Origin: Novosphingobium silvae
GTDB lineage: Bacteria > Pseudomonadota > Alphaproteobacteria > Sphingomonadales > Sphingomonadaceae
Direction of reading: 5' to 3'
Assembly (NCBI RefSeq): GCF_009856825.1
Contig: NZ_WVTD01000001.1
Location: 248,001 to 312,000 of the forward strand
DNA length: 64,000 nt
Positions 8,072-44,703 of the stretch are shown piece after piece (the first letter of the stretch is position 1; each line of letters opens with the position of its first letter). A program made the position numbers and the translations under genes. The notes beneath the pieces are model-generated. The model was not told where the DNA came from, did not search any database, and saw nothing but the letters and a program-made list of their open reading frames with translations.

Positions 8072-8246
8072 GCGAAGGCGGGGCGTCGGTGTGCGGTCTG
8101 GCGGCTAACGCCGGCTTCGCCGCATAGCCTGGACGCCCGGCCGGCCGGGAGCAGCATGAGGGAGGCGATGTCGCGTCTGGAGAAGGAACGCACCAAGCGG
8201 AAAGCCGGACCAGGCTGTGAATATCAACGCTGTCAGTGGAAGTTCC

Positions 8247-8263
8247 TGGATGCCCCGCGAGGA
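8247..8263. repeat. attL (17-bp core)
   Basis: TGGATGCCCCGCGAGGA here matches exactly the sequence at 44687-44703, which is the 3' end of tRNA-Gln including the encoded CCA. A looser match continues for about 8 bases. This copy is the displaced host 3' end left by integration. Confidence 0.88.
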
Positions 8264-8350
8264 ATTGGAACGCACAGCTAAGCCCCTACAATACAATCGA
8301 ATTTTAGAATGTCGTATCGATCTATACCCCCATCTGTACCCCCTCGGGCT

Positions 8351-8551
8351 CTATATCGGGGGGCCTCCAGCCTGCTGGTTCTTCCAGCCCTGAACAGCAC
8401 CCTCCATCCACGCGACGCGGTTGGCGGAGAGTTGGACGGGCGCGGGGAATTGGCCCTTCGCGACCATGCGATAGATGGTCGAGCGGGAGAGCGAGGTCTC
8501 TGCGACGATGTCGTTGATGCGCAGGAAACGGCCCGAGGCAGCGTTACGCAT
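8351..8551 (-). CDS. AlpA-family DNA-binding regulator / candidate excisionase
   Basis: Helix-turn-helix protein of 66 aa (MRNAASGRFLRINDIVAETSLSRSTIYRMVAKGQFPAPVQL). The FLRINDIV…LSRSTIYRMVAKGQFPAP pattern is typical of AlpA/MerR-like phage regulators. Start 8551 is preceded on its strand by AGGGAGG, a strong ribosome site, so the longer frame is not needed. The gene lies about 90 bp inside attL. In the excised circle it would sit just across attP from the integrase, the expected place for a Cox/Xis-like directionality factor. That role is inferred from position. Confidence 0.8.
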   Translation of the reverse strand: MRNAASGRFLRINDIVAETSLSRSTIYRMVAKGQFPAPVQLSANRVAWMEGAVQGWKNQQAGGPPI

Positions 8552-9018
8552 GCGCGCCTCCCTGAGCGCGCTCGGCGCGCGAGTGGGAGGTGCAAGGTAG
8601 CGATTCAGAGAAGAAACTGGCGCAGTCAAAGGGCAATGTCCCAGCAAGAGGACCCTTCGACCAGCTGCAATTCTGGAGGTCGGGCGTCACCGAGTTTGCA
8701 GACCGGTGTACATTGCCAGAACCGGCAGGCCCGAAAGCCTCACGGTGCGCCCGACCAAAGAAAAACGCGCTCCGCAAAACGGGGCGCGCCGGACGGCGTC
8801 GTACATAGCGGCTGCAAATCCGCATCGCTACCTTTTTCGTAACGACCGCGGGCACGTTGCTCGCCTGTCGTGGGGTTGTCAAGGTCATGAGCCTTAAGGC
8901 CTTTTTTGGCTTGTGAATGGGGGTTGGTTTGTGGAGGCGGGGCTTCACAACGCGTGGCTTGGCGCCACTCGAAAAGGGTGGGCCGCGTCCGCGAAGAGGT
9001 GGAGTTGAGCGACGGCGC
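8552..9018. other. Gene-poor stretch between AlpA and PcfJ-like genes
   Basis: No ORF here has convincing coding character. It holds the terminator at 8758-8788, and on the minus strand an open frame reading MTLTTPRQASNVPAVVTKK… that runs across the terminator, so it is unlikely to be a gene. A TTGACA on the minus strand near 8880 could be a -35 for the alpA direction, but no good -10 accompanies it. Confidence 0.5.
8758..8788 (-). terminator. Rho-independent terminator of the leftward early operon
   Basis: On the minus strand GCGCCCCG-TTTTG-CGGAGCGC forms a stem (one G·U pair) followed by GTTTTTCTTT. It sits about 230 bp after the PcfJ-like gene, the last gene of the operon starting near the Cro-type gene. 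Confidence 0.75.
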
Positions 9019-10005
9019 TCATGCGGCTCGTCCTTTCGGGAGGTTGGCAAGTTCGGGGCAATGCCCGTCGATGAAGGCAGTGGTGGCCTTCCAGACTGCG
9101 GCGCTGGCCGCCTTGTTCGCGAAGGCCTTAAGCTGCTGGACGTGCCCGCCGACGATCTCGACGGTGGCCATGCGGCGCATGTCGGCGCGAACGGAATAGA
9201 TGTGGCAGTCGCCCGCCATTACGCGCGGGATGTAGCTAGCCACACAGTGACGCATTCGCGCTCCCTCCTCGAGGAGCATGCCCGGAGTGGCCAGCTTGAA
9301 GAATTCGAAGCCGGCGACTTCGGCGTGGTCGGGCCAGTCGCTCAGGTCGATCAGCGTAGAGGGCGTCAGGCCAAGGCCGTAGGCGCTGAGATTGCGGTTG
9401 GCGGCCAGGCGATCGTGCCAAAGCTCAACCTCGTTCTCCATGCGCTCGAACGACCATCGTTCGACGTCAGCCAAGTGGTGCCTGGCGAGGTAATCCGCAA
9501 AGTCTTCCGCCTGGCCATCGCCGCAGCGCTGGGCATGCCGGGCGATCCACGCGAAGCCGCGCTTGGGCGAAGCGCGGTTGAGCACGAGGCGGCGGCGGTA
9601 TTGGCGCAGCGAGCGGAGCCATTTGCGCTGCGCGCCGGGCTTCTCCGGGATCGCCTGCGAGAGGGTCGAGGGGTCGAGATCGTTCAACTCGCGAACGAAT
9701 TCCGCCATGTAAGGGACGATACAGGAAGCCTTGAGCTTACGGAGTGGCCCGGCGATTGCGACTGCCGCCATGACCGAGCGCAGACGCTCCCCCCGCTGGA
9801 TAGGGCCTGCGATGCGACTGGCGATGTAGAGCCTGTCCGCCTTCGTGTTCACCTTTACACCGAACGAGGCTGCGAGGACGGGGGCCTGTTCTAGATAATC
9901 GATCGCGCGCGGGTGCAGGTCCGCCAGGAAGAGCGCGTTGCGGTGCATGCCCTGATTCGGGAACAGGGTGACGGCGCGGGCGCGAGGGGAGAGCGCCTCG
10001 TTCAT
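9019..10005 (-). CDS. PcfJ-like protein
   Basis: Protein of 328 aa. The C-terminal third shows the PcfJ signature: EEGARMRHCVASYI (His-Cys), then IYSVRADMRRMATVEIVGGHVQQLKAFANK. Upstream is a long helical region rich in Arg and Trp. PcfJ-like proteins are common in mobile elements, but their biochemical role is unknown. Its ATG overlaps the stop of the preceding gene by four bases. It is the last gene before the leftward terminator. Confidence 0.8.
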   Translation of the reverse strand: MNEALSPRARAVTLFPNQGMHRNALFLADLHPRAIDYLEQAPVLAASFGVKVNTKADRLYIASRIAGPIQRGERLRSVMAAVAIAGPLRKLKASCIVPYMAEFVRELNDLDPSTLSQAIPEKPGAQRKWLRSLRQYRRRLVLNRASPKRGFAWIARHAQRCGDGQAEDFADYLARHHLADVERWSFERMENEVELWHDRLAANRNLSAYGLGLTPSTLIDLSDWPDHAEVAGFEFFKLATPGMLLEEGARMRHCVASYIPRVMAGDCHIYSVRADMRRMATVEIVGGHVQQLKAFANKAASAAVWKATTAFIDGHCPELANLPKGRAA

Positions 10006-10687
10006 GTCGCCACCGCGTCTATATTGCCGCGATGGACATCAAAGCTGACTGCTACGACCCATGGATTGTCCTGCCACCGCTCGCCCTCGACGGTGTGGAG
10101 GCTGTTCCAGAGGGTAGCGTAGCTGCGCGTAGCCGGGTTGCCAGGGTCGCGAACATTGAACCCATCCCCCCAACGTAATCGCGCCAAGCTGTCCCGCCGG
10201 TACAGGCGAAACCCTCAATGCCCTCCGCGATCGCATCCGCCTCGCTGCACTCCTTCAACCGCTGGACACGCACTTCGGTAACCGCCAGCCAGATGCGCGA
10301 GAAGTGGCGCGGCATGTGGATCGATGGCGTCCAGCGTTCGCCGTCCCCAAGCTCGTAGCCATCGGCCTTGAACGCAGCGACCTTATCGCGCTGGTTATCG
10401 CTGCGCCTGATCCAGTAAAGCGCGCTCTCTCTAACGTAGAGGCGGTCGCCAGAGGCATAAGGCAGGTGAAAGCGCTCGCTGCTGTTCCAACTGCCGTTCG
10501 CGCGCCAGTAGTAGGCCTGCCCGTGCTGGGGAGCGCCTGTGCAGTAGTCGCCAACATGATCGACCCGCTTGCCTGCTGCAAGTGTATCGCCCGGCTGCGG
10601 CTTCAGGATGCGGCGGGTTTGTGTTTTCCTCCCGCCGAGCAGCGCCTGCACCATCGGCGCGGAGAAGATGATTCCCTTTTCAGCCAC
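10002..10687 (-). pseudogene. ASCH-like phage protein, split by a -1 frameshift at a G6 run
   Basis: The first frame (from MAEKGIIFSAPMVQALLGGRKTQTRRIL, 10687) carries the well-known phage hypothetical/ASCH-type N-terminus, with RLYVRESALYWIRR and PRHFSRIWLAVTEVRVQRLKECSEADAIAEGIEG. After WRDYVGG (around 10166-10171, six C on the plus strand) it drifts into nonsense. The expected C-terminus, PATRSYATLWNSLHTVEGERWQDNPWVVAVSFDVHRGNID, continues in the -1 frame to a stop at 10002. One missing base in the homopolymer explains this. It may be a real mutation, an assembly error, or less likely programmed slippage. Function unknown; such proteins are near-universal in proteobacterial phages. Confidence 0.75.
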
Positions 10688-10952
10688 GGCCGGCCTCCTT
10701 CCCGAACGGAAGGAAGTGTTCGCAGCCGATCACGCCACGTGTGCCGCAGTTCGGGCACGGGCCGGGCGTCGGAGCCGCGAAGGTCGGCACCGGCTTCCAG
10801 AGCCGGCGGGGCTTGGCGCGGTACGCGGCGGCCAAGCGGACGGGTTCGAACGCGAGCGGCTGACTGGCGGTGCGGATCGCGCGCAAGTTGGCGTCGAAGT
10901 CCGCAAGGTCGAGGTCGGGCGCTTCGAAGAGCGCGGCAGGGCTGATGTTCAC
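10680..10952 (-). CDS. Small phage protein with C-terminal CPNCG motif
   Basis: About 90 aa from a GTG at 10952 that overlaps the stop of the upstream 40-aa gene (GTG in TGGTGAAC). It reads VNISPAALFEAPDLDLADFD… and ends with PGPCPNCGTRGVIGCEHFLPFGKEAGRG, a possible zinc knuckle (CxxC…C…H). It overlaps the next gene's ATG by eight bases. The longer frame extending to 11273 is a coincidence of frames. Family not recognised. Confidence 0.55.
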   Translation of the reverse strand: MNISPAALFEAPDLDLADFDANLRAIRTASQPLAFEPVRLAAAYRAKPRRLWKPVPTFAAPTPGPCPNCGTRGVIGCEHFLPFGKEAGRG

Positions 10953-11071
10953 CAGTTCACCCCGCGAAGCAGGACGTGGCCGCAAATCGCGGCGATGGCG
11001 GGGCCGGTAGCGGCGAAGCCGCGCAGGCCGGGCACGGTGAAGCGGTAGAAGCGGGCGGCCGTCTCGCTCAT
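10949..11071 (-). CDS. 40-aa phage micro-protein
   Basis: Reads MSETAARFYRFTVPGLRGFA and ends HVLLRGVNW. It is supported by overlaps at both ends: its ATG overlaps the stop of the upstream gene (ATGA) and its TGA overlaps the downstream GTG. No domain is recognisable. Existence is inferred from tight packing in the operon. Confidence 0.5.
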   Translation of the reverse strand: MSETAARFYRFTVPGLRGFAATGPAIAAICGHVLLRGVNW

Positions 11072-11273
11072 TTGAAGGTGCTCCAGTCGATTTCGGGGAG
11101 GTCGGAGTGGCCCGCGGCGCGCATGTCGGCGCGCAGTTGGTTGGCCATGGCGCGGACTTTTCGCGATCCTGCCGCGCCTTGGCGGCGCGCACCTCGGCGC
11201 TGCGTTGCCCGAGGGTCTGCGCGGCGGTGGTGGTGGCCGCCTTCCGGCGGAAGAGGCGCGGCAGGCGGAACAT
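11068..11273 (-). pseudogene. Small phage protein, probable 1-base deletion near 11160
   Basis: MFRLPRLFRRKAATTTAAQ…VRAAKARQDREK opens in one frame. The natural continuation VRAMANQLRADMRAAGHSDLPEIDWSTFK, ending at 11068 in an ATGA overlap with the next gene, is in the -1 frame. A missing base in the AAAAG stretch at about 11160 would restore a 68-aa protein. An alternative is that only the 26-aa C-terminal peptide starting at its own Met is made. Function unknown; N-terminus is basic. Confidence 0.45.
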
Positions 11274-11276
11274 GGA

Positions 11277-11774
11277 TCAGTCGATCCCCAGGCTGCACTT
11301 GTAGGTGTCGAGCAGCATGTCCATTTCGCGGCGATCGTCGGGCTTCATCTTACGAATGCGCACGATCTGGCGCATGATCTTGACGTCGTACCCGACCGCT
11401 TTGGCCTCGTTGTAGACGTCACGGATATCGTCGCTGAGGCCCTTCTTCTCTTCCTCGAGGCGCTCCACGCGCTCGATCAGGAGCCGCAGCCGATCGTCGG
11501 CGGCGCGGTTCTCTTTCGGGAGATCGACCGGGATGGTCATCTGCTGTTCGGCCGGCGCGGACGGGGTGAGCGCCTGTCCGTCGTCGCCGAGGACGACGCG
11601 GCGGCCGACGTCGTCGGGTGCGGAGACGATGCCGTCGCGTTCCATGCGCTCGACCAGCAAGGCGGCGGTGTTGTATCCCACGCCGATCTTGCGCTGCAGC
11701 CACGAGGTGGAGGCCTTGTCGTGCTCGCGCACGAGCGCGACGGCGGTGCCGTAGTGATCAGTTTCAGTGGTCAT
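11277..11774 (-). CDS. FtsK-gamma winged helix fused to GapR (DUF2312) domain
   Basis: Protein of 165 aa with two recognisable parts. Residues about 5-55 (YGTAVALVREHDKASTSWLQ then RKIGVGYNTAALLVERMERDGIV) match the gamma winged-helix domain of the FtsK translocase, which reads KOPS-type DNA motifs. Residues about 92-165 (ADDRLRLLIERVERLEEEKK, then DDIRDVYNEAKAVGYDVKIM and RQIVRIRKMKPDDRREMDMLLDTYK) match GapR/DUF2312, an alphaproteobacterial protein that clamps overtwisted DNA. An acidic/Pro linker joins them. Start 11774 is in TGATG overlap with the gene upstream. The combination suggests a sequence-guided GapR-like DNA-structuring factor for phage replication or transcription; that role is inference. 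Confidence 0.85.
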   Translation of the reverse strand: MTTETDHYGTAVALVREHDKASTSWLQRKIGVGYNTAALLVERMERDGIVSAPDDVGRRVVLGDDGQALTPSAPAEQQMTIPVDLPKENRAADDRLRLLIERVERLEEEKKGLSDDIRDVYNEAKAVGYDVKIMRQIVRIRKMKPDDRREMDMLLDTYKCSLGID

Positions 11775-11950
11775 CAGCCGATCCTCAGGAGTTCGTCGAT
11801 CTTCGCCCGGGCGTGATCGGCGCCGCGCTGCCAGAACAGGCCGCGCTTGCTGGTGGGGGAGTAGGGATTGCGTGCCGGCGGGGCGGCAAGCAGGCGTTCG
11901 GCGATGACGGCGTCGCGGCCTTCGCGAATGTGCTGGGCGATCGGCGTCAT
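11774..11950 (-). CDS. Rmf/CrpP-like small phage protein
   Basis: Protein of 58 aa (MTPIAQHIREGRDAVIAERL…NPYSPTSKRGLFWQRGADHARAKIDELLRIG). The NPY(x)nW(x)nGAxxAR pattern resembles the ribosome-modulation-factor-like fold common in phage and plasmid micro-proteins. It overlaps both neighbours (ATGA upstream, TGATG downstream). Function is not established. Confidence 0.6.
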   Translation of the reverse strand: MTPIAQHIREGRDAVIAERLLAAPPARNPYSPTSKRGLFWQRGADHARAKIDELLRIG

Positions 11951-12087
11951 GACGGCAGCATCGTCCAGAGAAGCGCGAAGGCGTAAGCAATGGCGGGCGT
12001 CATGAGGACGAGGCGCACCGTGTCCTGCTGGACATCGCAGGGAGCGCTTCGCCAGAGATCGCGCCAGGCGGCAAGGGAGCCGGTCAC
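11947..12087 (-). CDS. Small membrane protein
   Basis: About 46 aa from a GTG at 12087 (VTGSLAAWRDLWRSAPCDVQ…) with a C-terminal hydrophobic segment VRLVLMTPAIAYAFALLWTML. GTGA overlap with the upstream stop supports the start. No family recognised. Confidence 0.5.
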   Translation of the reverse strand: MTGSLAAWRDLWRSAPCDVQQDTVRLVLMTPAIAYAFALLWTMLPS

Positions 12088-12296
12088 TGGCGGCGGCCCG
12101 AAAGGACGCGCTGCTCTGCGCTGACGGTGCAGGGCCCGCAATAGACGTGTATGTCGCGGCGAGACTCCTTGCGTGTCCACCCTTTCGGCAACGCGGTGCT
12201 GCGCGTGTGCTCGACGCACTCGCAGGCGTTGCAGATGAAGGTGAATTGCGGGGGCGTGCGGCGCGTGGCGGGCGCGGATTGACGATTGAGGCGCAT
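12084..12296 (-). CDS. Small cysteine-containing phage protein
   Basis: Protein of 70 aa starting MRLNRQSAPATRRTPPQFTFICNACECVEHTRS and ending HVYCGPCTVSAEQRVLSGRRQ. Two CxxC pairs (CNAC, CGPC) predict a zinc-ribbon-like fold. A longer frame upstream exists but is low complexity. Possibly DNA- or RNA-binding; unassigned. Confidence 0.55.
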   Translation of the reverse strand: MRLNRQSAPATRRTPPQFTFICNACECVEHTRSTALPKGWTRKESRRDIHVYCGPCTVSAEQRVLSGRRQ

Positions 12297-12316
12297 GGCG
12301 GGGCCTTTCGATTTGA

Positions 12317-12493
12317 TCAGCGGAAGGTGGAGAGGCTGTCGACCTGCAGACCGACCACGAAAGCGATCAGCAGTATCGACACGCAGAAGACGGCAGCGGC
12401 GCCGAGGCCGAGGAAGATTGCACCGCCATCCAGCGGCGGCGGGGTGCAGGCGCGGCAGGCGCACTCCATGGAGTGCACATCAGGTTTCAGCAT
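12317..12493 (-). CDS. Small single-pass membrane protein
   Basis: Protein of 58 aa (MLKPDVHSMECACRACTPPP…) with a cysteine-rich N-terminus and a transmembrane helix IFLGLGAAAVFCVSILLIAFVVGL. It lies 13 bp after the Ogr-like gene and 20 bp before the zinc-ribbon gene. Function unknown. Confidence 0.5.
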   Translation of the reverse strand: MLKPDVHSMECACRACTPPPLDGGAIFLGLGAAAVFCVSILLIAFVVGLQVDSLSTFR

Positions 12494-12506
12494 GTGAGGA
12501 TGCCTT

Positions 12507-12875
12507 TCAGGCGGCTTCCGCCGAGGGCGGGCCGAGTTCGAACATGTCTGGCTGTGTGGCGTCACGCGGGCGCGTGGCTTCAAGAAAGGCTTGCCGCTCC
12601 ATGGGGCGCAGCGGCAGGTCGACCTTGGGATTGGGGATGCCGCTGGGGACGATCCCGTATTCGTATGCGAGCGACGCGCGCCAGCTGTGGCTGCAGAACA
12701 GGTTGACGCACTGGTAGTACATGTCCCTGTGCTGGCCGGTGACCTGCTTGCTGGAGCGGATGCGACCTCGAAAGCCACAGTGCGGGCAGTAGAGAGGCGC
12801 GAACCGGCCGGCGTCGTCTTCGGCTACGACGCTGGCGACGTCCTCTGCGGCCGTTTGCTTGTGTCCCCCCGACAT
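12507..12875 (-). CDS. ogr: Ogr/Delta-type zinc-finger late transcription activator
   Basis: Protein of 122 aa. Residues 30-62 show C-P-H-C … C-(4)-C (CPHCGFRGRIRSS…YYQCVNLFCSHSWRASLAYEY), the zinc finger of the P2 Ogr / P4 Delta family, which turns on late phage promoters through RNA polymerase. The P2 protein is about 72 aa; this one has extra N- and C-terminal tails. It sits in the leftward early operon rather than after gene D as in P2. A shared dyad in the late promoter regions is the candidate target. Confidence 0.85.
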   Translation of the reverse strand: MSGGHKQTAAEDVASVVAEDDAGRFAPLYCPHCGFRGRIRSSKQVTGQHRDMYYQCVNLFCSHSWRASLAYEYGIVPSGIPNPKVDLPLRPMERQAFLEATRPRDATQPDMFELGPPSAEAA

Positions 12876-12878
12876 CGA

Positions 12879-13334
12879 TCAGGTCCCCGACGCTTGCGAT
12901 TTGAGGTTGTGGAGGAGCGCGGCCCAAGCCTGCATGGCTTCCTCGCCCTCGCGGATAGCTGCAAGGCGCGCGGCCGGATCGCCACTGCTGGCCGCCTGCA
13001 TGACGGCATTCATGGCCTCTCCGCTTTCCTTGGCCGCAATGCCGGAGGCCTTCATCAGGCAAGTGGCATCTGCCCCGGCCGCAGTGGTGTCGATGCCCAG
13101 GCGCGCAGCATGGCAGTCGAGAAACGGCGAGCACGCGCCTCCTGCCTGGCGGAACGCAGCATCGAGGCGGATCGCATCGCGATACTTGAGTTCGCGGCCG
13201 GTGTCGGGATCGCCCAGCTTGCGGGTCATCGAGACGGACATCTCGACGATTTCGGCGCAGGTTTCCCATCCCAGAAGGTCAGCGACGGTTTCGAGCGCGC
13301 GGTACTGGGTGAGCGGTTGGCGAGGCTTCGTCAT
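12879..13334 (-). CDS. Phage early protein, possible CII-like regulator
   Basis: Protein of 151 aa (MTKPRQPLTQYRALETVADLLGWETCAEIVE…). The N-terminal part, with LADLLGW-like and RDAIRLDAAFRQAGG segments, resembles phage regulatory CII (CP76-type) proteins of P2-like phages. The C-terminus is Ala-rich helical. ATG overlaps the stop of the Cro-type gene (ATGA). The assignment rests on context and weak similarity. Confidence 0.5.
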   Translation of the reverse strand: MTKPRQPLTQYRALETVADLLGWETCAEIVEMSVSMTRKLGDPDTGRELKYRDAIRLDAAFRQAGGACSPFLDCHAARLGIDTTAAGADATCLMKASGIAAKESGEAMNAVMQAASSGDPAARLAAIREGEEAMQAWAALLHNLKSQASGT

Positions 13335-13699
13335 GCCTGCACCGTGCGGTCACAAGTGTGCAAAGCCGCCCGGTGTTTTCCGTATCTCGTGCCGCCGGCG
13401 CGATCTACGCCGTGGAAGACAGGAGCGGCATCAGGGCTCGCTTCTGCCGGAGTGCAGGGGCGATCTTGGTGGGCAGCACGGGCAACAGCTTCAGGGACAT
13501 CTCCCGAAGGGAAGATGACCAGTTCTGCCGTGACGGGCAGTCCGAGAGCCAAACCGACCGCCAGAACGTGCGGTTGCTTTTCAGCGGGGATGCGATCGTT
13601 GCGCTTCCAACCAGCCACGGTTGAGGGAGACTCGGAAAGTTCCCGAGCCATCGGCCTAATGCCGTCGAACAGTGTGAAAATCGAGATCTGCGGTTCCAT
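13331..13699 (-). CDS. Cro-type HTH regulator
   Basis: About 122 aa from ATG 13699 (MEPQISIFTLFDGIRPMARELSESPSTVAGWKRNDRIPAEKQPHVLA). The HTH reads MARELSESPSTVAGWKRNDRIP, the Cro/YdaS style. A longer frame would need a TTG. Divergent from the putative repressor gene across 85 bp, so it probably heads the early (lytic) operon running to 9019 and is repressed in the lysogen. The C-terminal half is low in recognisable structure. Confidence 0.7.
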   Translation of the reverse strand: MEPQISIFTLFDGIRPMARELSESPSTVAGWKRNDRIPAEKQPHVLAVGLALGLPVTAELVIFPSGDVPEAVARAAHQDRPCTPAEASPDAAPVFHGVDRAGGTRYGKHRAALHTCDRTVQA

Positions 13700-13710
13700 G
13701 AACACGCATG

Positions 13711-13772
13711 TGCGGGAAAATGAAACGCTTGGCAAATCTTTTTTGGGACTGACATCGTATCAGATTTCCGCA
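13711..13772. promoter_or_regulatory. Divergent control region between Cro-type and repressor genes
   Basis: An inverted pair TGCGG(G)AAA at 13711-13719 and TTTCCGCA at 13765-13772 flanks the AT-rich middle of the 85-bp gap. These are plausible half-sites for the repressor or Cro. Clear -35/-10 pairs could not be assigned. Confidence 0.4.
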
Positions 13773-13784
13773 CGGCATGCGCAA

Positions 13785-14324
13785 ATGACCAAGTCTGTCC
13801 CCGAACGCCTGAAAGAACTGCGGATTTCCGCCGTTCCCCGCCTATCGATTCGCAAGATGGCCGAGGAGCTGGGGGTTACGTTTCCACGCTACGTCTACTT
13901 CGAGGACTCAAAGCGCTTCAAAAAGCGCGAACTTCCGCTCGAGTTCACCCGCCAAATCGCGGACGTCCTATCCCGATATGGCGTGGACCCCATGGAAGTC
14001 ATGAAGCTTGCCGGGTTGAGCGAGGCCGAGGCTGAACCTGAGGTGCGTGAAATTGAGGCTGCTCAACCCAAGCGCCACTGGATCAACCTGCCGGTGTGCC
14101 TTCCTAGTGAAGCAGCCCTCGCTGCAATGTTTGAAACACTTCTAGCCTTGATTCCGGAAGACGCGACTCGGGCTGAAGCCGCCCGCATTCTTGCTCAGCG
14201 GCTTCCAACTGGGTTCGCAGCGATCGGACCTGACGTTTATGAAGAGGGCTCGGACGAAGAGCCTGTTCCCGCCTTGCCGCCTCGAGGGCACGCCAAAGGT
14301 CGTCGCGATTCGCCACGGCTGTAG
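13785..14324 (+). CDS. HTH phage repressor (CI-like)
   Basis: Protein of 179 aa from ATG 13785 (MTKSVPERLKELRISAVPRLSIRKMAEELGVTFPRYVYFEDSKRFK). The N-terminal HTH is of XRE type. No LexA-like peptidase domain (Ala-Gly site, Ser/Lys dyad) is visible, so induction by RecA cleavage is not supported; P2 C repressor also lacks it. It is the only rightward gene in the left arm and is oriented head-to-head with the Cro-type gene, as expected for the lysogeny gene. Confidence 0.7.
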   Translation: MTKSVPERLKELRISAVPRLSIRKMAEELGVTFPRYVYFEDSKRFKKRELPLEFTRQIADVLSRYGVDPMEVMKLAGLSEAEAEPEVREIEAAQPKRHWINLPVCLPSEAALAAMFETLLALIPEDATRAEAARILAQRLPTGFAAIGPDVYEEGSDEEPVPALPPRGHAKGRRDSPRL

Positions 14325-14547
14325 CGCAGGCTACGCTGCATCGCAGGCACGCGAGGTCGCACCCCGGCGTCAGTCGATAAATATTGCTGCTCACTTCGCG
14401 ACCCCGCATGTTCTCGATTCGTTCCGAATTTAGCGGGACGAGCCGTGTAGGAAACCCGTAAGTGCACAGGCATGAAAATTTCCTTGTTGACCGCAGGTTA
14501 TGTGCGTCTCGTCGTGGCTGTGCGGATAACGACGACAATCTCCGGGA

Positions 14548-15582
14548 CTAGGCTAGCACCTCCAGCTGCAGCCGAGTGGACAGCCCACGCCCGTCCATCT
14601 GGTGATCGGCCGAGGCAATGAGCCACTTCGCGGCATCGACGTGCGGCTTGAAGTCCGAAACGGTCACATGCATCCCGGGGATCAACAACGGATTGCCAAG
14701 CGACAGATCGAGATCAAGGCTGGCGCTGGCGCGCTGCAGGCGCTGATGTTCTGCTTTGCTGGCCGCATCTGCATCGGCCTTGCTGGCGTAGACACGCTTC
14801 AGGCGCTTCTTGTTCGTTCCACCGGTGCTTACCGTCTCGCGCTTCCCGGCCTTGGTGTCGTGGTACTGGGCCTCGGCCCCGTCCTGCCCCTTATCCCGCG
14901 CGCAGCGTTTCCAGGAGTAGCGGCTGCAATCGCTGCGGCTGATCTGCCCGGTGGGCAGGGCAGCACCCGTGGCGGTGGTAGTGGCGCCGATCGGCACGAA
15001 GATCAGGGCACCGGCCTTCACCGTTGACGTGGCGTCATAGCGCCGCGCCAGATCGCGAAGGAACTGCATGTCCGACTTGTTGCCCTGTTCGGCCGCCGAG
15101 ACCGACCGGTCTGCCAGTTCAGCATGGCAGCGCGGCACAAGGCCGTGCCGGCCGGCGATGGCGGCCACGATGGCGCCGAGCGTCGTATCCTTCCAGACCT
15201 GATTGATGCGGGTGCGGAAGCTGTTCTTGAAATCGGCGCTGCGGGCACGAACGGAAACGCGATCGGGAGGGCCTTCCCAGCTGAGTTCGTCGACGATGAA
15301 GCCGCCCTTGTCCACGAGGCCGGGCGTAACGCCGGTCCCCTGCAGCCATCCCAGCGACACCCGCAGGATCGAACCCTGCGGCGGGGGCGCGAACTGGCCA
15401 TCGTGATCGTGCACGACGATCTCCAGTTCATCCGCCTCCTCGCCTCGCCGCTCTGACAAACGCAGGGAGATCAGGCGCGGGGCGATAGTGCTGGTCAGGC
15501 TGACGCCATCAAGAGTTACGTCCCACGCCGCGCGGGCTTCGACATGGCGCGCCGTGACGATGATCGGATCGCCGTCCTTCAT
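14548..15582 (-). CDS. D: Tail protein gpD (late control protein)
   Basis: P2 gpD family, 344 aa (P2 about 387). It is the baseplate hub, equivalent to T4 gp27. Recognisable segments are LRLSERRGEEADELEIVVHD near the N-terminus, FIVDELSWEGPPDRVSVRARSADF, and the long-range hub segment KSDMQFLRDLARRYDATSTVKAG. Last gene of the leftward tail operon; its ATG overlaps the end of gpU by four bases. Confidence 0.9.
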   Translation of the reverse strand: MKDGDPIIVTARHVEARAAWDVTLDGVSLTSTIAPRLISLRLSERRGEEADELEIVVHDHDGQFAPPPQGSILRVSLGWLQGTGVTPGLVDKGGFIVDELSWEGPPDRVSVRARSADFKNSFRTRINQVWKDTTLGAIVAAIAGRHGLVPRCHAELADRSVSAAEQGNKSDMQFLRDLARRYDATSTVKAGALIFVPIGATTTATGAALPTGQISRSDCSRYSWKRCARDKGQDGAEAQYHDTKAGKRETVSTGGTNKKRLKRVYASKADADAASKAEHQRLQRASASLDLDLSLGNPLLIPGMHVTVSDFKPHVDAAKWLIASADHQMDGRGLSTRLQLEVLA

Positions 15583-28730: not shown

Positions 28731-30056
28731 TTGATGATCGGCCGCCTTCTGATAAATAGCTCCGCTATGCTGGGCGGCCAGCTTGCAAGCGTTGCGATCA
28801 CCCTGATCCAAAGCGTGATTTTAGCTCGCGCTTTCGGTCCCGAGCAATTCGGAAAATGGGCACTTCTGATCTCGGCGTCTTCTTTGATAGCAAACTTTTT
28901 AGCGTTTAGAACGTCTGAGTCGTTAACTTGCTTCTGGGTAGAAGCACGTGAACAGAACGATGCAAACTCGGCCCAAGTATACTTGTCGTCAGCGCTTATA
29001 GTAGAGTTCGCGACCAAACTGATGGCCGGCTTTGCTACGTTCATTATGGGCGTTGCGCTTCTCGGCGGCATTCGTGCCACGTGGGATATTGTAGTCGCTG
29101 CTGCTTTAATCGGGCTTTACCGATTTTTAAGCTTTGGTGACGCCGCCTGGATGAGTCTGATGCGTGATGAGAAGCGCATCAAAGCCCTATCTTTGCTGCC
29201 CACTGCGCAGGCCATGATGCAGCTTTGCTTGATTGCAGTGCTGCTTGCGGTTTTTGGCAAAGGCTTGTTCCTGGCCGCGCTGAGCTACGTCGCAGCGCAG
29301 ACGGTGTTCCTTGTGGTCAAGGTTGATCAAACACGCTCAACCGCTAAGCGCGCCGGAGTTGCCTTGCTTCCGCTCGGCAACCTGAGATCCTTGAAACCCA
29401 GATGGCGTGCCGGTTTTTGGAAGATGATGGGCGCGGGCTATCTGTCGTCATGCCTTTCTTCATTGATGAAGGAGGGGGATACTCTGGTCGTTGGCCTTGT
29501 GGCCTCCGACAGCTCCGTTGGCTTCTATCGTCTCGCGCGATCGTTGGTGTCGGTAGTACAGCTAGTCACTCAAGCGATAGCGACACTCATACTGCAAGAT
29601 TTCGCGGAAATTCGTAGAAATGGAGCCGCTGCGGTTCTGTCCGTCGTTCGTCGCGTGGCTGTCCCGTTTGCGGCGTTAGTGCTTGCAGGGTGTGCGGTGA
29701 TCGCGATTGCGCTGCCCGCTGTCATAAAGATGATTTATGGCCCGCAATACGCCGGCGCGGTGTTGCCGTTCCGCATTCTCCTCGTCGGCACAGCAGTGTC
29801 GACAAGCCTGTTCTGGGTGACGCCAGCACTCATCGCACTACGCGAGGTGCGTGCTATGCTGCATATCAGCTTCATGAATTTCGCGGCTTACGTGGCATCG
29901 ATGGCCCTGGGCATCTACCTTCTGCAAGGAACGGGGCCAGCCGTCGCCACTTCTGTCGCTTGGACAGTCGGTTACAGCGCCTCGCTTGTTTGGCTACTCG
30001 TCGTTCTCAGACGAGAGAAATGCAGGGACCACGATGAAGGTACTTTACCTCGCTAA
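28731..30056 (+). CDS. Oligosaccharide flippase (Wzx-like), prophage cargo
   Basis: Polytopic membrane protein of 441 aa in the MVF/polysaccharide flippase superfamily. It opens MMIGRLLINSSAMLGGQLASVAITLIQSVILARAFGPEQFGKWALLISASSLIANFLAFRTSESL, the typical first two helices with the GPEQFG motif. A dozen or so hydrophobic segments follow (SYVAAQTVFLVV, GDTLVVGLVASDSSVGFYRLARSL, PFRILLVGTAVSTSLFW). It would move lipid-linked sugar units across the inner membrane. AT-richer than phage neighbours. Its end overlaps the glycosyltransferase start by 23 bp. Alternative: a host-derived O-antigen gene. Confidence 0.85.
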   Translation: MMIGRLLINSSAMLGGQLASVAITLIQSVILARAFGPEQFGKWALLISASSLIANFLAFRTSESLTCFWVEAREQNDANSAQVYLSSALIVEFATKLMAGFATFIMGVALLGGIRATWDIVVAAALIGLYRFLSFGDAAWMSLMRDEKRIKALSLLPTAQAMMQLCLIAVLLAVFGKGLFLAALSYVAAQTVFLVVKVDQTRSTAKRAGVALLPLGNLRSLKPRWRAGFWKMMGAGYLSSCLSSLMKEGDTLVVGLVASDSSVGFYRLARSLVSVVQLVTQAIATLILQDFAEIRRNGAAAVLSVVRRVAVPFAALVLAGCAVIAIALPAVIKMIYGPQYAGAVLPFRILLVGTAVSTSLFWVTPALIALREVRAMLHISFMNFAAYVASMALGIYLLQGTGPAVATSVAWTVGYSASLVWLLVVLRREKCRDHDEGTLPR

Positions 30057-31152
30057 AGATCTTAACCCTCGACAAGGCTGGGGACGATACTCGGTCGAGT
30101 TAATTGAAGGCCTGCGTGAACTTGGCGTGGAGGCCTTGACCTGCACACCTGCGGGACCGTCTCAAGGTGAACTTCCGCTTCTAGGCCCTACCAGATGGAA
30201 ACTGCAGGACATATTCCAAGCGAGAGCCGACGCTCAAAAGCTGGCTTCACTTCGACTTGGCGTCGGTGCAATCCATGCGCTTGATGAAACGACGGCACAA
30301 ACTGGATCGAAGCTCGCCGCGATCCTAGGCTTGCCGTTCGTGCTAACCCTTCATGGCACCTATGCCGTTGCCCCAATTCGAGGGTTGAAGGGCTTACTTC
30401 TACGCCGCGCCTTCCGATCTGCTGATTTGGTCCTCGCTAACAGCGAATACACTCTAAAGCAGTCGGAGGAAGCAATGGGCGCTCGCTACACGAACGCGCA
30501 GGTCGTGCCGCTTGGCGTCGGCCAAGAGTTGATTGATCCTGTTCCACGGCCTCTCGCTGCCAGATCCCGCACCATTCTTTCGGTGGGGTCCGTCAAACCA
30601 CGTAAGGGTATGCTCGTGAACGTCCTCGCCTTCGCCGATCTGCTACGCTGGGTTCCCGACGCGAAACTTGTCATAGCGGGTTCGATCTCCGAGACAGACT
30701 CGTATGTCATTCGGCTGCGGAACGAGATTTCGAAACGCGGCCTGGAGGGCAAGGTCAGGCTATTGGGGGAGGTGACGGAGGATGTCCTCGAAGAGCTTTA
30801 TCGCAGCTCACGAGTGTTTTGCATGCCCGCTCTGCGGGAGTACGATCATTTCGAGGGTTTCGGTTTGGTCCATCTCGAGGCGTCAGCAAAAGGGCTGCCG
30901 ACCATAGGGTCGCGAGAAGGCGGAAATTTGGGGGCCATCCAAGATGGATGCACCGGGTTCGTGGTAGATCCGAGAAATCGGGCGGACATTGCTCAAGCGA
31001 TGCACTGTACGTTGACCGACGATGATCTTTGGGCACGGATGTCAAGCGCCGGCGTTGCATGGGCGAAGCGCATGAACTGGCGAGATACTGCCGAGCGCAC
31101 GTTCGAGGCCTACGGCAAGCTGGGCGTCGGAATATTGCCTCACAGACGGTGA
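30034..31152 (+). CDS. GT4-family glycosyltransferase, prophage cargo
   Basis: Protein of 372 aa from ATG 30034 (MKVLYLAKDLNPRQGWGRYSVELIEGLRELGVEALTC). It has the two-Rossmann GT-B layout: N-terminal LTLHGTYAVAPIRGLKGLLLRRAFRSADLVLANSEYT and C-terminal ILSVGSVKPRKGMLVNVLAFADLLRWVPDAKLVIAG. The donor-binding EGFGLVHLEASAKGLPTIGSREGGN matches the GT4 EX7E motif. It should add a sugar to lipid-linked O-units or LPS core. Translationally linked to the flippase, so the two likely act in one pathway. Confidence 0.87.
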   Translation: MKVLYLAKDLNPRQGWGRYSVELIEGLRELGVEALTCTPAGPSQGELPLLGPTRWKLQDIFQARADAQKLASLRLGVGAIHALDETTAQTGSKLAAILGLPFVLTLHGTYAVAPIRGLKGLLLRRAFRSADLVLANSEYTLKQSEEAMGARYTNAQVVPLGVGQELIDPVPRPLAARSRTILSVGSVKPRKGMLVNVLAFADLLRWVPDAKLVIAGSISETDSYVIRLRNEISKRGLEGKVRLLGEVTEDVLEELYRSSRVFCMPALREYDHFEGFGLVHLEASAKGLPTIGSREGGNLGAIQDGCTGFVVDPRNRADIAQAMHCTLTDDDLWARMSSAGVAWAKRMNWRDTAERTFEAYGKLGVGILPHRR

Positions 31153-31198
31153 TTGCCACAGCGCGAGATGAGACCTTCCTTCAACCAAAGGGTCTATC

Positions 31199-32341
31199 TC
31201 ACCATGCTCGCCGCGGCGTGTTCTTGCGTTTGAAGTAAGCCTGGATGCGGGCGTCGTAAAAGGCTGTTGCGCCATAGGCTGCGATGATGACAACTCCGAC
31301 ATACACCACCATCTTTATCGGGGATAATGCGGAGAGCCACGCGAGCGGATAATCCAGGGCATCAAGCAAAGGCACGTGAGTGATATAAACCGCGTAAGAC
31401 AGCATGCCTGCTGCCTCAATGAAAAGGGCAAACCAACCAGATGAGATTGCCACCCTTGCGCCGATGTAGATTGTGAGAGGGAAGAGCATGGCCACTAAGG
31501 CAAAGTCATACAGGTAGTTACTCCCGGCAGGCAGGACTGGGGTAAACAAGACTGCAAAGAGCACAACGGCAAGCACTGCCGCGACGAAACCGCTTACAGT
31601 GTTCGTTGACTGCAGGCGGTACCGAAACAAAAGTATCCCTGTTGAAAAAGGGAATAAAACCTGAAAAATGCCGTACTGTACGTTGTCGAAATTCTGACCA
31701 ACCTCAACACTGTCAAAATTCGTGGATATCACGAACAGCGCGGCGCCACTCGCCAAGGCGACAGAGATTACAACTGTGTTACTTAATCTCTTTATAAAAA
31801 GAGCATATAATACATTCGCGATGAGCTCAAAAAACAGAGACCATGTCGGGGGATTGAGCAGGAATATCTCAGAAGAAGAATTTGGCAGGTTTGGCAGTGA
31901 AAGCGCTGCAAAAGGGAAGGCGATAACCGCATCAATTAGTCTGTCAGTGCTATGCTTTGTTAGAGCCTTCAGAACTTCGACGAATAGGCCCAAGCATGCA
32001 CCAAGAATTACGAGGGGCATTAGCCTTTGTAGGCGTCGGACAATAAAGCTCGTTCGAGACATCCCAGTCCGTAACTTGTCCTCGTAGGCATACGCGATCA
32101 CGAAACCGCTTAGCATGAAGAAGAAGTCCACCGCGAGATAGCCATGCTCGGCCAAGCCATTTGGTAATAGCTCACGGCGATGATAGAAGACAACCATGAC
32201 CGCAGCTAACCCGCGTAGAGCATCGAGGAAAACGAACCGGTGCCGTTGCAAGGTGGCGGCCAGTGGTAGCCCCGCTTGATCATTCTTCGTATCGGCAACT
32301 CCGTCTTTCACCGCACCCCCCCGTTCGAGCCGCCTCGGCAT
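31199..32341 (-). CDS. Acyltransferase-3 family membrane protein, prophage cargo
   Basis: About 380 aa, polytopic; related to OafA/NodX-type sugar O-acetylases. FVFLDALRGLAAVMVVFYHRREL carries the family's RG…H pattern, then HGYLAVDFFFMLSGFVIAYAYEDKL, FIVRRLQRLMPL and NPPTWSLFFELIANVLYALF. The start is uncertain: ATG 32341, GTG 32311 (with G-rich upstream) or an ATG at 32443 are possible. Converges with the glycosyltransferase. It probably acetylates surface polysaccharide, changing phage receptor or antigenicity. AT-rich composition like the flippase. Confidence 0.82.
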   Translation of the reverse strand: MPRRLERGGAVKDGVADTKNDQAGLPLAATLQRHRFVFLDALRGLAAVMVVFYHRRELLPNGLAEHGYLAVDFFFMLSGFVIAYAYEDKLRTGMSRTSFIVRRLQRLMPLVILGACLGLFVEVLKALTKHSTDRLIDAVIAFPFAALSLPNLPNSSSEIFLLNPPTWSLFFELIANVLYALFIKRLSNTVVISVALASGAALFVISTNFDSVEVGQNFDNVQYGIFQVLFPFSTGILLFRYRLQSTNTVSGFVAAVLAVVLFAVLFTPVLPAGSNYLYDFALVAMLFPLTIYIGARVAISSGWFALFIEAAGMLSYAVYITHVPLLDALDYPLAWLSALSPIKMVVYVGVVIIAAYGATAFYDARIQAYFKRKNTPRRAW

Positions 32342-35944: not shown

Positions 35945-36976
35945 TCAGGCGGCGGGCATCGCCTCGATGTTCTCCACGAGGCAGGCGCAATCGAGGTCCT
36001 CGATCACGTATGCCTCGTTGGACGAGTTGTAGTCGGTGACCTGATCGAGTTCGGGCTCGTCCTTGATCAGGCGGCGCTGCTTGCCGTCCTGGTAGTAGAT
36101 CGACAGATTGTCGAAGCGGGTGATGAACACCTTGCCGTTAGGCATGCCGGGCACACGCACCGCCGGCAGCTGGCCGAGGCGCTTGGTGGACATGATCAGG
36201 TCGCGGGCCAGCTGCTCGGTCGGCGCTTCCGCCTGATTGATCATGGGGAAGTACTTGTCGTGAAGCAGGTCGCCGCCGACGATGGCCACCAGTTCGGTGT
36301 CATCCTTGGCCCAGGGGGCGAGCAGGCTCTCCTTGGCGTCCCAGACGAGAGCGTCGAGCGTCGCGTAGTCGCCGCCTTCGCCATAGGTCACCTTGCCATC
36401 CGTCTCGCCTTCGTCGAGCACGCGGGCGGCGTTCTCGGCGCGCATCTTCTGCAGCCAACCGATGTTGACGTCGGTAAGCAGCGGCGTCGTCGTCGGGTTC
36501 GTGGTCGCAGCGGCAGCGGCGCTGGTTCCGTTGAAGCCGATCAGGATGCGGTCGAGTGCGAAGCGCTTGACGTTGTTATCGCGCCAGAGTGTCTCGAACT
36601 CGGGGAACTTGGCCCACATGTCGATCTTGGCATAGCGCAGCGCCACATCGAAGTTGGTCTGCACGCAAGTGTAGGTGCGCTCGTCCATCGTGCTGGGATC
36701 GCGGCCAACGCGGCGCGTACCGGCCGCCGTGTTGGTTCGGCTCGCGATCGGGCTGCCCACGCCGAGGCCAAGCAGTGCACCCGACATTTCGTCGACCGGG
36801 CTCATGTTGATCAGCGACAGGAAGGCGCTCGATTCCTGCACGCGCTGCTGCAGCTTCTGCTGCACTGTCGGCGCGACCGCGAACTTGCGGGTCTGCGCGG
36901 TCGCCGCCGAGACGCCGTTCAGCGAGGCGATGTTCTCGACCATCGCGGTGAACAGGGCGAGAGTTTCATTCTTCAT
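35945..36976 (-). CDS. N: Major capsid protein gpN
   Basis: Protein of 343 aa (P2 357). FAVAPTVQQKLQQRVQESSAFLSLINMSPVDEMSGALLGLGVGSPIASRTNT is the gpN N-terminal arm, followed by YTCVQTNFDVALRYAKIDMWAKFPEFETLWRDNNVKRFALDRILIGFNG and IYYQDGKQRRLIKDEPELDQVTDYNSSNEAYVIEDLDCACLVENI. Forms the icosahedral shell with gpO as internal scaffold. Confidence 0.95.
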   Translation of the reverse strand: MKNETLALFTAMVENIASLNGVSAATAQTRKFAVAPTVQQKLQQRVQESSAFLSLINMSPVDEMSGALLGLGVGSPIASRTNTAAGTRRVGRDPSTMDERTYTCVQTNFDVALRYAKIDMWAKFPEFETLWRDNNVKRFALDRILIGFNGTSAAAAATTNPTTTPLLTDVNIGWLQKMRAENAARVLDEGETDGKVTYGEGGDYATLDALVWDAKESLLAPWAKDDTELVAIVGGDLLHDKYFPMINQAEAPTEQLARDLIMSTKRLGQLPAVRVPGMPNGKVFITRFDNLSIYYQDGKQRRLIKDEPELDQVTDYNSSNEAYVIEDLDCACLVENIEAMPAA

Positions 36977-42436: not shown

Positions 42437-42440
42437 TCAG
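42416..42440. terminator. Perfect 10-bp hairpin between convergent transcripts
   Basis: CTGAGGGCGC-CCTAA-GCGCCCTCAG, followed on the plus strand by TCCTTTTCCTTT. It overlaps the last codons of the leftward gene at 42437; U-rich only in the rightward sense. Confidence 0.55.
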
Positions 42441-43234
42441 TCCTTTTCCTTTAAGGTCTGTAGCCGGGGGTACAATGCCAGGTTGGCACTCGCACTAGGT
42501 ACAGAAGAAAGGCCAAGCATCTCCTCGTGCTGACGCATGGCGTCGATGTCGCCGCCGTACATGTGCGCCAGGCGCGAGGTCGCTGTTCCGCTTGCAAGAG
42601 CCCGCCGTTCGGAGTGCTCGCGTCCTACGCCTGCCGACAAGGAGCCAGTGAGGCTCTTGAGCAGCCGCTCTGCCTTGATCGCCATGCGGTTCGGAACCGC
42701 GCCTGATCCCTCGAGGTGACGGACCTTCTCGCGCAGCTTGCCGCCAAGCTTCTGGCGCAAGGTGCGCACGATCTCGATCGGCAGTTTCACCATGTCGATG
42801 AAGTAGGCGTTACTCGTTTGCTGACGCTGCGGACCTTCTCCTTTCGCGTTGCCGGTTTTCACCGTGCGCCGCACCCAGTCGACGATGCGGTGTTCGCGCA
42901 GGGTTTCCAGCATGCGCACAACCGTGCGACGGGAGAGGCGGCTCCGTTTGGAGATTTCGTCAAGGCTGGGATCGCAGCGGCCTGTCTTTCCATCCATGAC
43001 CCCGAACAGGGCTCGCAACACGCGGAGCGCGTTCTGCGAGATCGGAAGCGTCTTGCCATGCTCGCGAACGTGATCCGCATAGGCCTCTACCGTGTCGCGG
43101 TACACGTCCGTGAAGCGGTGGAAGTTCTCCTTCTTCGGCGTCGGCTCCCAGTAGATCGTGGAGACCTGGGCACGCGCGTCATCGACGTCGTAGCTACGCC
43201 GCCAGAGTCCGTTTCCTGCGCGATCGCCGCTCAT
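42437..43234 (-). CDS. Helix-turn-helix phage protein, replication-type
   Basis: Protein of 265 aa from ATG 43234 (MSGDRAGNGLWRRSYDVDDARAQVSTIYWEPTPKKENF). Residues about 60-130 form a winged helix (ALRVLRALFGVMDGKTGRCDPSLDEISKRSRLSRRTVVRMLETLREHRIVDWVRR), as in plasmid/phage replication initiators and RepC/DnaD-like proteins. The rest is basic and unassigned. Its start overlaps the integrase end by about 40 bp, so it is co-transcribed with the integrase. A replication or partition role is inferred from context. Confidence 0.6.
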   Translation of the reverse strand: MSGDRAGNGLWRRSYDVDDARAQVSTIYWEPTPKKENFHRFTDVYRDTVEAYADHVREHGKTLPISQNALRVLRALFGVMDGKTGRCDPSLDEISKRSRLSRRTVVRMLETLREHRIVDWVRRTVKTGNAKGEGPQRQQTSNAYFIDMVKLPIEIVRTLRQKLGGKLREKVRHLEGSGAVPNRMAIKAERLLKSLTGSLSAGVGREHSERRALASGTATSRLAHMYGGDIDAMRQHEEMLGLSSVPSASANLALYPRLQTLKEKD

Positions 43235-44537
43235 GCCCGGTCTCCCCGGACGGCGCGCGCCATGGCCGATGTTCCGGCAACAGCAAGTGCGGCTCCACCG
43301 CACCCTGCATCAGCAGGTCGGCCCATACCTGCGCCAGATGCCTCCTGCGAGGCAGATACATGGCGCGATTGTAGATCGGCTCCACGCCTTGCTGCGCGTG
43401 CGCGAGCATGAGGTCGATGATCGCGCGGTCGCGCTCCTGATCCTCCATCGCGGCGCGTTCGTTCATGATCGTCGAGAATGTCGACCGCCAACCATGCGGT
43501 ACGTGCAGCCCCGTGAATCCCGCGTCCCGATAGATCTTGCTCAGCGTGCTGTCGCTCATCGGACGCTTCCACCCGCCCACGCCCGGGAACAGCCAGGAGG
43601 GCCCTTCCGTCTCGCGGCAGGCCGGGCTTTCCGAGATCGCCGCCCGCGCAGTTGCCGCGGCGTCCCGCGACAGCGGAATGACGAATTCCCACGTGATATC
43701 GCGCTTCTGCGAGCGCGTGAGTTTCATCTTCGCGGCCGGGATGCGCCAGAGAGGATTGTTCCCGTCCAGCCCCTCGAACTCCTGCCGTTCGGCCAAGCGC
43801 ACCACGCCCGGCCGCGCTGCGGTCAACGCAAGCAGCCGCGAGGCTAGAAGAGTAGACCAGTGCGTGCCGGGCAGGTCCTCGATCGCGGCCAGCAGCTGCC
43901 GGGCATCTGCCACCTTCACCATGGCTGGCCGGAGCTTCGGGTCCGTGGGTGCAAGCGCCTTCTTGATGATCGCAGCCGGGTCCGTATCCGCCAGCCCCGA
44001 TGCGATCGCCCACACAAAGACGTCCGAGACGTGATTGCGCACTCGGTGCGCCATATCGTGCGCGCCGCGTTGCTCGATCTTGCGTATCATGGCCAGCACC
44101 ATCGGCGCGGTGATGCTGCGGATTGGCTTCGGCCCGAGCGAGGAGAAGACGTTGTTCTCCAGTCGGCTCAGAATGTGCGCCGCGTATCGTTCGGAAAGCG
44201 CCTTCGCCTTCACCGCGTGCCAGGCGCGCGCGATCTTCTCGAAGCTGTCCAGCGCGTCGGCTGCGGCCTGTGCCTTCCTGTCCTGCTTCTCGGCGGACGG
44301 GTCGATGCCGTCGCGTAGCTGCTGCTGGGCCTTGTCCCGCGCGTTGCGCGCTTGCGTGATTGTGACCTCGGGATAAGGGCCGATTGCGAGCAGCTTCTCC
44401 TTGCCCGCGAAGCGGTACTTCAACCGCCAGAGCTTCGAACCCGTTTTCCGCACGAGCAGGTACAGGCCCCGCTCGTCGAACATCTTCCGGTCCTTCTCGC
44501 CTGGCACCGCCTTTCGGCAGGCCGCATCCGTCAGCAC
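43194..44537 (-). CDS. int: Tyrosine recombinase integrase (P4-type)
   Basis: Site-specific recombinase of 447 aa that integrates at tRNA-Gln. The N-terminal DUF4102 arm-binding domain (LTDAACRKAVPGEKDRKMFDERGLYLLVRKTGSKLWRLKYRFAGKEKLLAIGPYPEVTITQAR) is followed by a core-binding domain. The catalytic domain shows Arg242 (LTAARPGVVRLAE), H348-G-W-R351, His380 and Tyr394 (NRAMYLPRR). Start is GTG 44537, about 150 bp from the attR core. Orientation with its start facing the tRNA is typical of P4-type elements. Confidence 0.93.
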   Translation of the reverse strand: MLTDAACRKAVPGEKDRKMFDERGLYLLVRKTGSKLWRLKYRFAGKEKLLAIGPYPEVTITQARNARDKAQQQLRDGIDPSAEKQDRKAQAAADALDSFEKIARAWHAVKAKALSERYAAHILSRLENNVFSSLGPKPIRSITAPMVLAMIRKIEQRGAHDMAHRVRNHVSDVFVWAIASGLADTDPAAIIKKALAPTDPKLRPAMVKVADARQLLAAIEDLPGTHWSTLLASRLLALTAARPGVVRLAERQEFEGLDGNNPLWRIPAAKMKLTRSQKRDITWEFVIPLSRDAAATARAAISESPACRETEGPSWLFPGVGGWKRPMSDSTLSKIYRDAGFTGLHVPHGWRSTFSTIMNERAAMEDQERDRAIIDLMLAHAQQGVEPIYNRAMYLPRRRHLAQVWADLLMQGAVEPHLLLPEHRPWRAPSGETGHERRSRRKRTLAA

Positions 44538-44686: not shown

Positions 44687-44703
44687 TGGATGCCCCGCGA
44701 GGA
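44687..44703. repeat. attR (17-bp core in tRNA-Gln 3' end)
   Basis: TGGATGCCCCGCGAGGA, identical to 8247-8263. It coincides with the tRNA 3' end and CCA, so integration keeps the tRNA gene intact. Confidence 0.88.

Follow-up and report, generated by a model that had tools for sequence, protein, structure and literature searches.

The window, a 64,000-nucleotide stretch of Novosphingobium silvae DNA, carries a prophage of about 36.5 kb between 17-bp repeats (Table 1). Its P2-type capsid, terminase, baseplate hub and tail genes, with the integrase and att sites, identify it as P2-like, in agreement with the phage setting proposed by an initial reading made from the sequence alone (hereafter the sequence-only reading). 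The gene of interest occupies exactly the positions given in that reading, 11277-11774, and lies on the minus strand, with an ATG start. It belongs to a leftward run that diverges from the repressor-like gene and that we infer to be a single early operon, with the Ogr-like gene on one side of it and the AlpA-like gene on the other. The stop codon of the 58-aa ORF directly upstream overlaps the start of the gene by one base (TGATG). A TTG start, which would give a protein of 237 residues, was set aside: this conserved 58-aa ORF fills part of the added stretch in another frame. The leftward run also encodes a PcfJ-like protein (9019-10005), matched in just one of the fused loci compared (L029). 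Elsewhere in the prophage are likely surface-modification genes at 28731-32443 (flippase-like polysaccharide synthesis, glycosyltransferase and acyltransferase 3) and, on the right side, a D12-class adenine methyltransferase gene (41123-41932). Positions 1-25000 of the window gave no megablast match in the phage collection searched.

Table 1. Features of the prophage and of the operon that contains the fusion gene (window coordinates)
Feature	Position	Strand	Evidence or remark
att repeat, left, 17 bp	8247..8263		repeat pair
AlpA-like excisionase/regulator, leftmost called prophage gene	8351..8551	minus	PF05930, E 7e-15
ORF region downstream of the fusion, start position uncertain; fused relatives have matches	10680..11273	minus	locus comparison
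γ-GapR fusion gene, 165 aa	11277..11774	minus	ORF call, Pfam, structure matches, AlphaFold model
GapR DNA-binding domain, residues 92-163	11286..11501	minus	PF10073; 70/73 aa identical to the host's own GapR
FtsK γ winged-helix domain, residues 6-62 (third helix 34-46)	11589..11759	minus	PF09397, model, 2ve9_A Z 11.8
58-aa ORF directly upstream of the fusion	11774..11950	minus	has matches in 4 fused loci, of which two are one contig
Ogr/Delta-like zinc-finger protein, fusion-gene operon	12507..12875	minus	PF04606, E 7e-12
Conserved gene phrog_38866, function not known, operon marker	12879..13334	minus	PHROG match, locus comparison
Divergent repressor-like gene	13719..14324	plus	weak phrog_8 match
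P2-family major capsid protein	35945..36976	minus	PF05125, E 2e-129
O-like replication initiation protein	42437..43234	minus	weak matches, phrog_8102 (E 1.8e-6) and others
Tyrosine integrase	43194..44483	minus	PF22022, PF13356, PF00589
att repeat, right, 17 bp	44687..44703		3' end of tRNA-Gln 44687-44760

The protein joins an FtsK γ domain to a GapR domain, as the sequence-only reading had claimed. Pfam finds both well above their curated cut-offs: FtsK_gamma (PF09397) scores 67.3 bits against a cut-off of 30.6 (E 9.5e-19), and GapR/DUF2312 (PF10073) scores 112.9 bits against 22.6 (E 5.2e-33). These are the only two Pfam domains in the 165-aa ORF, which has no FtsK ATPase motor domain. Sequence matches to solved structures point the same way (GapR 6cfy, E 5.8e-19; FtsK γ 2j5p, E 1.2e-07). 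By the GapR equivalog NF052541 the protein is not filed as the GapR orthologue (77.1 bits, below the NCBIfam cut-off of 140), while it passes the cut-off of subfamily PRK13694 (103.3 against 94 bits). It also matches the phage family PHROG 4212, in two stretches (E 1.4e-42). An assembly accident can be ruled out, because other viral contigs carry a copy with 98% identity as well as full-length relatives at 90, 87, 71 and 70%.

An AlphaFold model of the monomer, built from 25 aligned sequences (mean pLDDT 80.7, pTM 0.39), has a winged helix (pLDDT about 90), a low-confidence linker near residues 70-85, and then one long and two short helices, which fall at the position expected for GapR. The modelled γ part superimposes on KOPS-bound FtsK γ (2ve9_A) with Z 11.8 and rmsd 1.2 over 61 aligned residues, which confirms the predicted winged-helix fold; among the matches listed in two fold searches with the model there was no GapR chain. 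PADLOC found no defence-system match for this protein or for the three fused relatives scanned. Residues 11-62, within the γ domain, weakly match the Ren-like exclusion family phrog_142 (E 0.0012); lambda RexA, in turn, is described as resembling RdgC in structure (PMC11077077), and RdgC is another partner of γ, as discussed below.

The C-terminal 72 residues resemble GapR (DUF2312/UPF0335) of Caulobacter and other Alphaproteobacteria, including most of the residues that contact DNA or build the tetramer, with roles taken from PMC7373187 and PMC7498317. Caulobacter K34, K49, K56, R63, R65, K66 and Y82 correspond to K110, K125, K132, R139, R141, K142 and Y158, and K42 and K59 are replaced by arginine (R118 and R135), so that the DNA-contact set K34, K42, K49, K56, K59, R63 and K66, counted as K or R, is complete here, as is interface residue Y82. 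The protein differs from cellular GapR in being phage encoded, in its additional N-terminal winged helix and linker, and at K60, where it has Gln136; only 27 of the 47 fused proteins described below have K or R there. Across those 47, K49 and Y82 are invariant and position 34 is always K or R; the R63 position is Ala in 28. The sequence-only reading described this half as gripping overtwisted DNA. The kept residues support the DNA-binding part of that description, but the sensing of overtwisted DNA by GapR is disputed in print (PMC7498317).

The γ domain shares its fold with FtsK γ, and 32 of 58 aligned residues, counted by eye, are identical to the γ domain of the host FtsK, which, unlike the phage protein, has a motor domain. 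In E. coli FtsK γ, N1296, R1300 and E1303 read KOPS (PMC2533119). Here N1296 and E1303 are kept as N35 and E42, but Leu39 stands at R1300, as it does in the 98% relative, so the triad is incomplete and the label 'KOPS-reading' in the sequence-only reading goes too far for this copy. N1296 and E1303 are each present in 45 of the 47 fused proteins, and 38 have R or K at 1300; the relative from L030 carries Lys there. Because of Leu39, the reading of DNA by this copy may be altered or weak. Leu39 alone is nevertheless no proof of lost function, because cellular FtsK varies at position 1300 in the host's genus and order, with Lys in 13 host-genus rows and Asn or Thr in 4 host-order rows.

The fusion is no singleton. 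Purpose-built profiles run over 421 fetched loci found the 47 distinct fused ORFs, 38 in the order γ-GapR (one of them γ-γ-GapR) and 9 in the reverse order, GapR-γ. With a later scan added, there are 69 distinct fused cores, which form 40 clusters at 70% identity (28 γ-GapR, 11 GapR-γ and 1 γ-γ-GapR). Most loci were fetched with GapR-bearing queries and the γ query came from fused proteins, so the fusion shares quoted here are biased upward. The same architecture recurs in alphaproteobacterial phages and matches PHROG 4212, which is unannotated. That family spans the γ-GapR architecture, with the viral-contig protein of locus L127 (P0005) matching positions 18-351 of 353; its long members have an N-terminal region that the shorter window protein lacks. 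The γ-γ-GapR protein of phage RcMeacham is covered over at least 80% of its length in eleven records of cultured Rhodobacter capsulatus phages, each of which labels the protein hypothetical. Like the window protein, the proteins of RcMeacham and the other R. capsulatus phages carry γ and GapR in one ORF; they differ in having two γ domains, a layout read in RcMeacham itself, and a long C-terminal tail, with about 34% identity. A Ruegeria phage copy of the fusion is annotated 'cell division protein FtsK'.

Beyond these phages the pairing is rare. At least 3 of 195 whole genomes of the genus have a match spanning both domains, among the matches listed, and in a sample of 385 genomes from the class the window's own genome is the only one to do so, again among the matches listed. 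None of 80 genome-contig loci held a fused ORF. The RcMeacham protein matched two loci in viral contigs, neither of them fused, and of 258 plasmid records matched, none covered at least 80% of the query. Elsewhere in the window's own genome, a 230-aa protein contains two tandem GapR stretches (L003:1030-1722, G000:C8, minus strand). In the literature searched, which left most subscription papers outside its scope, we found no description of a γ-GapR fusion or of a pairing of RdgC with FtsK γ. Phage GapR-family proteins have been described, namely T4 DsbA and a stand-alone phage GapR, and for these the excerpts of PMC7824862 and PMC12185513 on which we draw mention no γ domain. The latter paper, from 2025, presents its GapR as the first from any phage genome; despite that claim, many phage records encode GapR-like stretches.

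A tree of GapR domains (73 columns, 13 firm branches of 155) rejected a single clade of all fused GapR domains (p-AU 8.7e-6; 43 rows versus 115) and also a single clade of the GapR domains of γ-GapR proteins (p 1.8e-52). The γ tree, poorly resolved with 61 columns and with the long-branch rows L289 and L282 dropped, is compatible with one origin per fusion type. The opposite domain orders stand irrespective of either tree. The fusions have more than one origin, or have been reshuffled; an exchange of GapR domains between fused genes and stand-alone ones could look like independent fusion.

Gene order offers a further view of the history of the fusion. An operon marker, either the Ogr-like gene or the 12879-13334 gene, occurs in 75 GapR loci, 59 with stand-alone and 16 with fused GapR (three of the fused rows being the window itself), and in all 75 GapR lies downstream of the marker on the same strand. 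After deduplication 54 loci remain, 45 stand-alone and 9 fused, and the gap between marker and GapR is below 2 kb in 36 of the former and all 9 of the latter; a query that carried GapR brought in nearly all of them, and the count covers phages that have GapR. The reversed GapR-γ protein occupies that operon position in L351 and L352, the latter with a near copy, L353. Because related prophages hold a stand-alone GapR in the same operon region, γ looks like an add-on. In one locus, L455, γ and GapR are neighbouring genes with a GTGA overlap. An exact 18-bp repeat flanks the γ gene there (L455:5987-6231), with one copy at 5987, over the start, and the other at 6214, across the junction of γ and GapR, which would suit a cassette-like insertion of γ.

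The GapR half of the window protein has 88% DNA identity to the host's own GapR gene, with dN/dS 0.08; because dS is 0.56, its capture was not very recent. Over four pairs dN/dS ranged from 0.14 to 0.47 for γ and from 0.08 to 0.23 for GapR (the 98% pair, with zero synonymous changes, was unusable), and both domains look to be under purifying selection. For this copy we discarded the idea that γ was taken recently from the FtsK of the host, the nearest rows to it in the poorly resolved γ tree being γ domains of other phages. The simplest history would be that a phage γ lineage was joined to host-like GapR domains.

GapR is not the only partner of phage γ domains. A γ-only search, biased in that its query was drawn from fused proteins, gave 191 loci, of which the best 80 were kept. 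In 51 of these 80, γ and GapR share an ORF (31 γ-GapR and 20 GapR-γ); in 2 they lie in separate ORFs, namely L455 and L473, where the genes are more than 3 kb apart; and in 27 γ occurs without GapR. Pfam scans of all 27 found RdgC in the same ORF in 15 (6/10 and 9/17), so that GapR or RdgC is fused to γ in 66 of the best 80 of 191 loci. RdgC is a ring-shaped dimer, and DNA is thought to pass through its pore (PMC11077077). These viral-contig proteins resemble the window protein in placing γ on a ring protein; they differ in that the ring partner is unrelated and that γ was C-terminal in the six examined singly. Of the other γ-without-GapR ORFs, one is a real FtsK motor, one a primase-polymerase/D5 protein and one VapE-like. 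The last two (L454:5278-8520 and L500:4786-7521) are a further tie between γ and phage replication. Nine have no further Pfam domain; seven of these were scanned with PHROGs, which identify two more γ partners, a DNA methyltransferase in L479 and a terminase-small-like part in L440. Tentatively, since we put its chances somewhat below even, we suggest that phages use FtsK γ as a portable ring-loading module on DNA-encircling proteins of little sequence preference, the GapR tetramer and the RdgC dimer, so that a general clamp would acquire defined loading sites, as the FtsK hexamer does through γ.

KOPS, scored as GGGNAGGG, was examined as a possible target of γ. On the 589-kb host contig the polarity of GGGNAGGG flips at the GC-skew minimum near C11:489000, with 25 plus and 77 minus sites to the left (prophage removed) and 34 and 5 to the right (Fisher 1.3e-11). 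Since GGGNAGGG is polarised about this minimum, the KOPS word of the host seems to be of the E. coli type. The region near 489000 (G000:C11) is itself a candidate replication origin. The prophage contains 3 sites (window positions 14953, 18321 and 35006), all on the plus strand, against host polarity. A second-order Markov model of prophage composition predicts about 4.4 (2.2 on each strand), which means no enrichment. At host density 6.2 minus-strand sites would be expected and none is seen (P 0.002), and none of 380 overlapping prophage-length host windows lacks a minus-strand site. The phage has not adopted host KOPS polarity. The targeting of the phage's own genome through KOPS therefore finds no support here and was set aside.

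Among phage loci, all distinct, observed and expected GGGNAGGG counts were 98 and 53.6 in 44 γ-GapR loci, 68 and 21.1 in 20 GapR-γ loci, and 302 and 165.7 in 165 stand-alone-GapR loci. The ratio in γ-GapR loci (1.83) is matched by that in stand-alone-GapR loci (1.82); that in GapR-γ loci is 3.2, but several control motifs are raised there too. This control run used six motifs on 43 γ-GapR, 20 GapR-γ and 166 stand-alone loci, deduplicated slightly differently; GGGNGAGG was raised in all three groups and most of the motifs in GapR-γ loci. In the 166 distinct stand-alone loci, GGGNAGGG favours the strand opposite the GapR gene (220 versus 84), where the second-order Markov model expects 97 versus 70.

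Our preferred explanation, to which we give an even chance, is that the gene encodes a phage GapR ring that is loaded or anchored at particular DNA sites by its γ domain. The C-terminal part would form a GapR-type tetramer that closes round double-stranded DNA, as the conserved residues suggest. Up to four N-terminal γ winged helices per tetramer, on flexible linkers, would bind a DNA sequence and thereby set where the ring is loaded or anchored, in the way that γ brings the motor ring of FtsK onto DNA at KOPS. There, one KOPS is bound by three γ domains, which place the motor ring next to it (PMC5052618), and a γ-bearing tetramer would likewise gather several γ copies. The protein would be expressed early as part of the leftward operon, and the ring would probably help to manage the supercoiling of phage DNA during replication and transcription. 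The presence of both domains, their kept contact surfaces, the operon position, the two domain orders, the rejected single clade and the DNA-handling nature of the other γ partners all favour this explanation; Leu39, Gln136, the Ala at R63 in 28 of 47 fused proteins and the absence of KOPS enrichment speak against it.

A different idea is that γ reads the KOPS of the host and diverts GapR rings from phage DNA onto the host chromosome, stalling or confusing FtsK or host replication. With GGGNAGGG strongly polarised on the host contig and none of the prophage's sites in host polarity, most of the sites open to a KOPS-reading γ would lie on host DNA. We nevertheless find this unlikely: Leu39 replaces R1300 in this copy, the prophage's sites are close enough to the number predicted from its composition that avoidance is not supported, and fused phage loci as a group are not depleted of KOPS. 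Alternatively, the protein could be mainly a transcription regulator, in which γ is an operator-binding winged helix and GapR a multimeriser, acting on early or late phage promoters. It shares its operon with the Ogr-like and AlpA-like genes, and T4 DsbA, described as homologous to GapR, is said perhaps to bring the RNA polymerase of the host to late promoters (PMC7824862). A search for iterons and operators in 8200-9100, 10900-14600 and 42300-44700 returned only two-copy direct repeats and scattered inverted repeats; such short repeats often arise by chance, and single short operators would escape the search. We regard a mainly regulatory role as about equally unlikely.

γ might instead bind a protein, docking on host XerD or mimicking FtsK and steering Xer recombination or segregation, with GapR as a DNA tether. 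FtsK R1289, which contacts XerD, is kept in 44 of the 47 fused proteins (R28 here), and the γ surfaces for XerD and DNA overlap (PMC5052618). Yet γ is also found on RdgC, on primase-helicase types, on a methyltransferase and on a terminase-small-like protein, where DNA reading is simpler, and the prophage carries its own integrase at a tRNA site; we consider docking on XerD improbable. Least of all do we expect that γ has no specificity and merely raises the general DNA affinity of an ordinary phage GapR. Many related prophages do have a stand-alone GapR in the same operon region, and γ diverges faster than GapR (against L031, dN/dS 0.47 and 0.08), but both domain orders occur and the base-reading residues N1296 and E1303 are kept in nearly all fused proteins.

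Overall, this analysis gives a first reading of the unannotated protein family PHROG 4212. If γ truly addresses the ring to sites, these phage proteins would be natural, sequence-programmed topological clamps and would show γ at work as a loading tag away from the motor of FtsK. Because relatives are present in cultured phages of a laboratory host, the idea is directly testable, and, if true, it would allow a test of what phages gain from placing GapR or RdgC at chosen positions on DNA.
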